Source: Flexithrix dorotheae DSM 6795
Lineage (GTDB): Bacteria; Bacteroidota; Bacteroidia; Cytophagales; Flammeovirgaceae
Direction: 5' to 3'
DNA length: 64,000 bases
NCBI RefSeq assembly: GCF_000379765.1
Contig: NZ_KB903437.1
Coordinates: 62,001-126,000, forward strand
Shown here: positions 18,611 to 53,605 of the stretch, in pieces
Layout of the letters: each line of letters begins with the position of its first letter
How positions within the stretch are numbered: position 1 is the stretch's first letter
Notes under the pieces: generated by a model
What the model was told of the DNA's origin: nothing
Seen by the model: the letters and a program-made list of their open reading frames with translations, nothing else
Databases searched by the model: none
Made by a program: the position numbers and the translations under genes

Positions 18611-19120
18611 GTGACCTTTTGCTTGCAAAAATTAAATTATAATCCGGCTAATAATCAGATTTTTTATCAATTCCAAAAGCCTTATTACTAAATGATAAAC
18701 TATGCAAGAAGATTAAACTTCCGTCCCTTTTTCCAATCGATGAAAAAGGGACGGCTGCGGCCGACCGTAAAAAAATCTCTGCCTTCAAAAAGGTTTTCCG
18801 AGAAAGTAAAGTGGATACCTGATATACTTTCCCACCAAGGACTAGCAAAAACCAATTCCTATCTGACATCCTTTCCCACACTAATTTTGAAGGCATTTTT
18901 GCTTATTAATACTTTTATAATTTCATCCTGCTAATTTTTTTAATTGATAGCCTATTCCATTTTACCAAGAAAGTCAATTAATTATTGGAATAATCTTATT
19001 TTCACTTCGCTTCAAAATCTTTTCTAATCCAATTTTTCCATAAATAGGGATTATACATTAGATTCGAATTTTCTTTTTTATTTATTGACCGCTCAGGAAG
19101 GATTTTGAAGTAGTTTATTT
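18611..19120. other. non-coding spacer holding structured-element copy 1
   Basis: 510 bases between the beta-helix lipoprotein and the SNF2 gene. Small frames on both strands are explained by the structured repeat (18721-18894) and are not called. Further right, CTTCAAAATC (19010-19019) and GATTTTGAAG (19101-19110) form a perfect 10-bp inverted repeat just before the SNF2 start. Confidence 0.6.
18721..18894. repeat. dispersed structured element, copy 1
   Basis: Two hairpin-forming modules. The first, 18721-18754, pairs CCGTCCCTTTTTC with GAAAAAGGGACGG around a CAATCGAT loop. The second is bounded by GCCTTCAAAA (18781-18790) and TTTTGAAGGC (18885-18894) and contains AGGTTTTCCGAG, AAGTAAAGT and CTTTCCCACACTAA. 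The same order recurs at 53248-53402 with a different but still fully paired first stem. Frames through it differ between copies, so it is not a coding gene. Could be a transcribed RNA or a non-autonomous mobile element. Confidence 0.75.
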
Positions 19121-53081: not shown

Positions 53082-53139
53082 AGGTTGAATTAACTCTTGA
53101 AGAGTTTATAGGGTAGAATATTAAAAATTTATAAAAGTT

Positions 53140-53167
53140 GCAAAAACTTATCTTTAGAAGTTTTTGC
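53140..53167. repeat. GCAAAAACTT hairpin
   Basis: Perfect 10-bp arms GCAAAAACTT (53140-53149) and AAGTTTTTGC (53158-53167) with an 8-base loop; may be a transcript end, but which gene it serves is unclear. Confidence 0.5.
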
Positions 53168-53247
53168 AGCTTATTTGATTTTCTTACTGACCTTCCAAAC
53201 AAAACTTCAATACTAAATTATAAGCAAGGCATGATGAGTTGGCTTTT

Positions 53248-53402
53248 GTCTATTTTTCCAGTCGATGAAAAATAGACGAAAAAATCTTGCCTTCAAAAAG
53301 GTTTTCCGAGCAAGTAAAGTAAGGATCTGCATCCCTTTCCCTCCAAGGACTTGAAGAAATTTACCTGTATCTGGGAATCTTTCCCACACTAATTTTGAAG
53401 GC
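53248..53402. repeat. dispersed structured element, copy 2
   Basis: Same order as at 18721-18894. A first hairpin GTCTATTTTTC / GAAAAATAGAC encloses CAGTCGAT (53248-53277). It is followed by a module bounded by GCCTTCAAAA (53289-53298) and TTTTGAAGGC (53393-53402), with AGGTTTTCCGAG, AAGTAAAGT and CTTTCCCACACTAA inside. The first stem differs from copy 1 at two adjacent base pairs yet still pairs fully. Confidence 0.75.
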
Positions 53403-53605
53403 GGTCTCGCTTACATACAGCATTATCATAAAATGAGTTTATAGTAATTGAAAAGCCAAAAATATTTCATCCTTTATTGAAGTAGTTTGGTGTGGAAACC
53501 ATACGTTTTATTAATTTTCAATATTCGGGATTAAAAACTCATCAAGAGTTGTCTACAAAATAATTCGTAATAATGTCAATTGTTCCTACAGCATTTGAAG
53601 GGTTT

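Follow-up and report, generated by a model that had tools for sequence, protein, structure and literature searches.

The window, the 64,000-nucleotide stretch of Flexithrix dorotheae DSM 6795 DNA analysed here, carries two copies of a dispersed element, which raises the question of whether a folded form is under selection and, if so, which strand folds and into what shape. The original prediction placed the copies at 18721-18894 (copy 1) and 53248-53402 (copy 2), with a common module order, loop, AGGTTTTCCGAG, CTTTCCCACACTAA and GCCTTCAAAA/TTTTGAAGGC frame. We found all of these in both copies, which form the longest repeat pair of the window (135 nt, 75%). Stem 1 (H1) has the arms GTCCCTTTTTC/GAAAAAGGGAC in one copy and GTCTATTTTTC/GAAAAATAGAC in the other, so that both arms have changed, again as predicted. 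H1 of copy 1 consists of 11 bp and is lengthened to 13 bp by CC/GG. The parts of both copies are listed in Table 1. Copy 1 is flanked by two + strand genes (a beta-helix protein and an SNF2-type helicase), making its minus strand antisense, and copy 2 by two minus-strand genes, making its minus strand sense.

Table 1. Positions of the element and its parts in the window
Feature	Positions	Strand	Details
H1 hairpin, copy 1	18723..18752	-	arms 18723-18733 and 18742-18752, loop 18734-18741
Loop triplet GAT (+ strand), copy 1	18739..18741	-	one side of the pseudoknot
Optional small palindrome, copy 1	18753..18769	-	GGCTGCGGCCGACCGTA, within the linker spacer
A-tract linker (minus-strand U-tract), copy 1	18769..18774	-	proposed third strand of a triple helix
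Linker triplet ATC (+ strand), copy 1	18775..18777	-	second side of the pseudoknot
P2 domain, copy 1	18781..18894	-	outer stem 18781-18790 / 18885-18894, conserved interior motifs
TA-target MITE carrying copy 2	53108..53533		approximate limits, by comparing L010, L011, L012 and L014; TIRs TAGGGTAGAATATT / AATATTCGGGATTA
H1 hairpin, copy 2	53248..53277	-	arms 53248-53258 and 53267-53277, loop 53259-53266
Loop triplet GAT (+ strand), copy 2	53264..53266	-	one side of the pseudoknot
A-tract linker and linker triplet, copy 2	53279..53286	-	A-tract 53279-53283, triplet ATC 53284-53286
P2 domain, copy 2	53289..53402	-	outer stem 53289-53298 / 53393-53402

The small palindrome is an extra of copy 1, absent from copy 2 and found in some copies only. 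Across copies, the same position between H1 and the A-tract holds three unrelated palindromic inserts of 17-19 nt each: the first kind is that of copy 1 and also occurs in L003, L004, L013, L018, L029, L031 and L092, the second is found in L028 and L044, and the third in L017 and L066.

Copy number and distribution of the element

A BLAST search of the 9.5-Mb F. dorotheae genome returned 36 local matches, of which about 20 cover nearly the whole element, and a query lacking H1 returned 22. Twenty-three full copies align, most of them 160-164 nt long apart from small inserts. We counted 20 exact matches to the hairpin-plus-linker pattern in this genome and 8 in the one same-genus genome. Sixteen further genomes of the family contained no match, nor did the other 394 Bacteroidota genomes drawn (reversed-pattern controls, 0), and the distribution of the element is therefore patchy. 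Its carriers are Flammeovirgaceae, Fulvivirga, Cyclobacteriaceae, Saprospiraceae, Sunxiuqinia, Niabella and Pseudomonas turukhanskensis, the last with 18 copies. Related copies in Pseudomonas number up to 34 per genome, and a looser pattern matches 40 of 159 Pseudomonas genomes (control, 0). Several matches (among them L062, L082 and L091) proved to be coding sequence that matched by chance and were set aside. No copy was found in the viral contigs searched, and the plasmids searched gave a single partial match. In the Pseudomonas genomes G461 and G804, several copies lie as inverted pairs with a few hundred bases between them.

Covariation of both stems

Comparison of the copies revealed that both H1 and the outer stem of P2 covary (14 pairs; 0 of 500 shuffles). 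For 38 distinct H1 sequences, pairing on the minus strand holds in 98.1% of cells, compared with 81.2% in shuffles and 52-62% in slid controls, and two-sided changes number 77 versus 22 in shuffles. The consensus-fold alignment contains two-sided changes in 12 of its 19 pairs. The P2 arms are wholly different in Fulvivirga and Cyclobacteriaceae with complementarity kept, and across genera the arm pairs GCCTTCAAAA/TTTTGAAGGC, GGCTTCTACA/TGTAGAAGCC, TGGCTCTG/CAGAGCCA, CTTTCCAC/GTGGAAAG and GTCAAAAAA/TTTTTTGAC are complementary though unrelated in sequence. The covariation first noted between two copies thus reaches about 20 copies in F. dorotheae and other phyla, and no ORF is conserved across copies, the recurring ORFs being only the repeats themselves. 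These results demonstrate both stems at the level of sequence comparison and support the original prediction of selection on a folded form, whether an RNA or a hairpin-processed mobile element. In line with its statement that no known family was recognised, the Rfam 15 covariance models gave no match in the window at the gathering score, and eight loci searched at a permissive threshold gave sub-threshold matches only. A literature search by sequence string returned a sole match, an unrelated miRNA paper.

Complementary arms might also persist in a passive palindromic repeat, kept complementary by DNA-level repair or template switching and spread as MITE cargo, with no selection on RNA. Four copies, including copy 2, do lie inside a TA-target MITE, and one copy at a shared site (L025) is decaying. 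However, copying from one arm to the other cannot account for a loop complementary to a linker that lies beyond the hairpin, or for a linker tract whose length follows that of the stem, and a passive repeat predicts no strand asymmetry of mismatches. All three features are described below, and we regard this explanation as very improbable compared with selection on the fold.

Pairing between the H1 loop and the linker

The original prediction missed a second pairing, between the H1 loop and the linker beyond the hairpin. In the Pseudomonas copies found by the looser pattern, the loop and the triplet that follows the A-tract change in step. The loop/linker triplets found are GAT/ATC, GCC/GGC, GCG/CGC, GCT/AGC, GAC/GTC and GAA/TTC, six complementary combinations in Pseudomonas and Bacteroidota, several of them within one genome (reversed-pattern control, 0). 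Pair 3-23 of the pseudoknot is seen as CG or AU, and pair 4-22 as UA, CG, GC or AU. The third loop-linker pair is missing in 7 of the 38 distinct sequences, and two pairs are all that fit in a short subtype whose loop is GTCGTGGC and whose linker is CCG. The combination GCC/CGC (2 of 3 bp) is common in many Pseudomonas copies and was scored as unpaired in the H1 covariation count. The loop-linker base pairing expected of a triple-helix pseudoknot RNA was thereby found and, judged from these coordinated changes, the H1 loop pairs with the A-tract linker to form a pseudoknot.

Coupling of the linker tract to the stem

The linker A-tract has the same length as the T:A-tract of the stem in 90 of 104 distinct cases, all drawn from patterns that require T and A tracts; the length pairs are (4,4) in 9, (5,5) in 59 and (6,6) in 22 cases, with 14 off the diagonal. 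We repeated the test with queries excluding H1, which yielded 45 H1s with tract lengths of 3 to 7. Of these, 27 are exactly equal [(3,3) 2, (4,4) 8, (5,5) 15, (7,7) 2] and 18 differ, most of them by one, the register of some being ambiguous; the Spearman correlation is 0.73, its p-value being inflated by the relatedness of the copies by descent. In four Pseudomonas copies (L240, L247, L249 and L262), one T:A pair of the stem is replaced by C:G and one A of the linker by C or G. The length coupling is evident from this comparison, and a third strand running along the stem would explain both the coupling and the joint change in composition. The 5 basal bp and the one-nucleotide spacer are invariant in most copies, as would be expected of a linker that crosses the deep groove. 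In telomerase-type triple helices, A-U pairs are lined by a U third strand that runs parallel to their A strand. The minus-strand U-tract of the element would face A-U pairs in the same U.A-U layout, from which we infer that a triple helix probably forms.

Identity of the folded strand

We counted the internal mismatches of H1 on the + strand by arm context, leaving out contexts that were the same palindromes read in reverse complement: 13 contexts have A.C or C.A and one has G.T. Since A.C mismatches on the + strand are G.U pairs on the minus strand, the folded strand would be the complement. The strand asymmetry is about 7 to 1 (p=0.07) when restricted to clearly separate lineages. In addition, H1 pairs at 98.1% on the minus strand versus 93.9% on the + strand, and the consensus fold has an energy of -20.2 versus -13.9 kcal/mol.

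The same structure could instead form on the + strand, with the A-rich linker in the minor groove of H1. Such minor-groove linkers occur in class I preQ1 riboswitches and viral frameshift pseudoknots. The topology is symmetric, A-rich pseudoknot loops are common, and single-sequence folding z-scores show no difference between the strands, all of which would suit the + strand; against it stand the frequent A.C and rare G.T mismatches, the consensus energy, and a stem tract that is nearly always T:A over A, whereas minor-groove contacts need no such tract. We therefore consider + strand folding a distinctly unlikely reading and regard the minus strand as the one that most probably folds. The fold of the original prediction stands, but most probably on the strand opposite to the one that was read.

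G.T is favoured over A.C in single-stranded DNA too, and the mismatch asymmetry therefore names the strand rather than identifying it as RNA. Among Bacteroidota copies with both neighbours (called as plain ORFs) in the same orientation, 19 have a sense and 6 an antisense minus strand (p=0.015); copy 1 is one of the antisense cases, which counts against the proposed minus-strand RNA.

Spread of the element and neighbouring genes

Terminal inverted repeats and a target duplication do not surround every copy: only L010, L011 (copy 2), L012 and L014 have TIRs and a TA target. These four lie in a MITE roughly 430 nt long, whose TIRs are TAGGGTAGAATATT. The MITE-borne L014 breaks up another palindromic repeat. 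At two sites orthologous between the same-genus genome and F. dorotheae (L066/L028 and L092/L025), the F. dorotheae copy is truncated or decaying, and the decay of L025 speaks against selection at the host level there. We found no gene that recurs next to the element. The best explanation is that the element is non-autonomous and is dispersed by borrowed or other machinery, partly as cargo of the TA-target MITE.

A Saprospiraceae MAG (L039:1-1183) holds six copies arrayed in tandem (about 183 nt), adjoining a gene (1159-2652, minus) whose product joins a tyrosine recombinase to an ATPase-like domain. A tyrosine-recombinase gene was found at this locus and no other, and an integron attC or cassette array was rejected. 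In Pseudomonas G461, a DDE-type IS, whose 392-aa transposase resembles the IS481 group, is inserted in several element copies at a constant point just after GGCTTGCT or CGCTTGCT (left junctions L166, L169, L175 and L176; right junctions L238, L242, L244, L250 and L254), and this IS appears to target the repeat.

The three Y1 (RAYT-like) transposase genes of the F. dorotheae genome (L097, L098 and L099) lie amid other short repeats, for example GGCTAAAGTTGCAAACTTTAGCC, GGATTTGTAATCC and ACACGCGACACGCGTG. The link to a REP-type transposase raised by the original prediction was not borne out: none of these genes has an element within 1.5 kb, and mobilisation by RAYT was rejected.

These observations bear on a reading in which the minus strand folds as single-stranded DNA, for example on the lagging strand, and an HUH-type enzyme recognises the fold, the loop triplet guiding cleavage in the linker as in the guide/cleavage-site pairing of IS200/IS605. 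A patchy dispersal across two phyla, strand-specific folding and a short pairing between a hairpin and a nearby tetranucleotide would all fit. But the Y1 genes have no adjoining copy and no neighbour gene recurs; the guide would sit in the loop rather than at the hairpin foot and would need no U-tract matched to an A-U tract; and the codirectional bias with genes (19 to 6) points to transcription. We consider the single-stranded DNA reading unlikely, as the strand asymmetry and gene orientation favour an RNA on the opposite strand.

Proposed structure and function

Taken as a whole, the evidence is best explained if the element encodes a minus-strand structured RNA of about 160 nt with a triple-helix pseudoknot, which we consider likely. 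From its 5' end, the RNA would comprise the P2 domain, closed by a 9-10 bp stem, then a short AG-NN-U(n) linker, and then H1, built of 5 basal pairs followed by n A-U pairs and one closing pair. An H-type pseudoknot would arise from pairing of the linker triplet with the H1 loop, while the U-tract would line the A-U half of H1 as a third strand, probably in U.A-U triples, and the single spacer nucleotide would span the 5 basal pairs. The H1 pseudoknot would close the minus-strand element at its 3' end and would often lie downstream of a gene with the same direction, and we infer that the element is transcribed.

A tentative function is that of an element in the 3' part of transcripts, where the compact 3'-terminal pseudoknot might block 3'-to-5' exonucleases or bind a protein. 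Protection of transcript 3' ends is our first guess by analogy, because the hTR triplex hinders 3' processing enzymes (PMC6303318). The results point to a previously undescribed pseudoknot carried by a mobile repeat. More speculatively, they could represent an undescribed class of mobile repeat whose unit is an RNA triple-helix pseudoknot, present across phyla with an interchangeable P2 and spreading or persisting through RNA, for example by 3'-end protection of transcripts or RNA-templated copying.

Comparison with known systems

R178 of Pseudomonas fluorescens is an intergenic repeat of about 101 bp with 9-28 copies per genome and an internal 11-bp inverted repeat, according to the parts of Silby et al. 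(2009, PMC2718517) considered here. The 11-bp repeat resembles H1 (11 bp) and the copy number is like that of the element in Pseudomonas (up to 34); the Pseudomonas copies are probably R178, matched by the size, copy number and internal repeat in that description, not by sequence. Those parts of the paper describe no pseudoknot, triple helix or Bacteroidota relatives for R178. REPs are 20-40 bp long with a GTAG or CGTC tag (PMC3733652). Like REP/RAYT systems, the element is dispersed, intergenic, palindromic and rare between divergent genes; it differs in measuring 161-163 nt with a pseudoknot, in having no conserved tag at the hairpin foot, and in having no linked Y1 transposase in F. dorotheae.

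Telomerase RNA contains an H-type pseudoknot in which a U-tract faces an A-U stem, an arrangement that the element would share. The triple helices of telomerase RNA and ENE/MALAT1 belong to single-copy eukaryotic RNAs without sequence relation to the element, whereas the element is a bacterial repeat with a 3-bp loop-linker pairing. The class I preQ1 riboswitch likewise has a hairpin whose A-rich tail pairs back to the loop; it differs in its 5-bp stem, + strand topology and location upstream of genes, and the element has no Rfam match. Most known triple-helix pseudoknots come from eukaryotic, viral and riboswitch RNAs, and a function is known for only a minority of bacterial intergenic repeats. 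Here, sequence evolution by itself suggests a detailed tertiary structure on a named strand and ties together sequences of Bacteroidota and Pseudomonas. A dispersed bacterial triple-helix pseudoknot would be available in many natural copies, with which a role of such structures in protecting mRNA 3' ends or in serving a mobile element could be examined.
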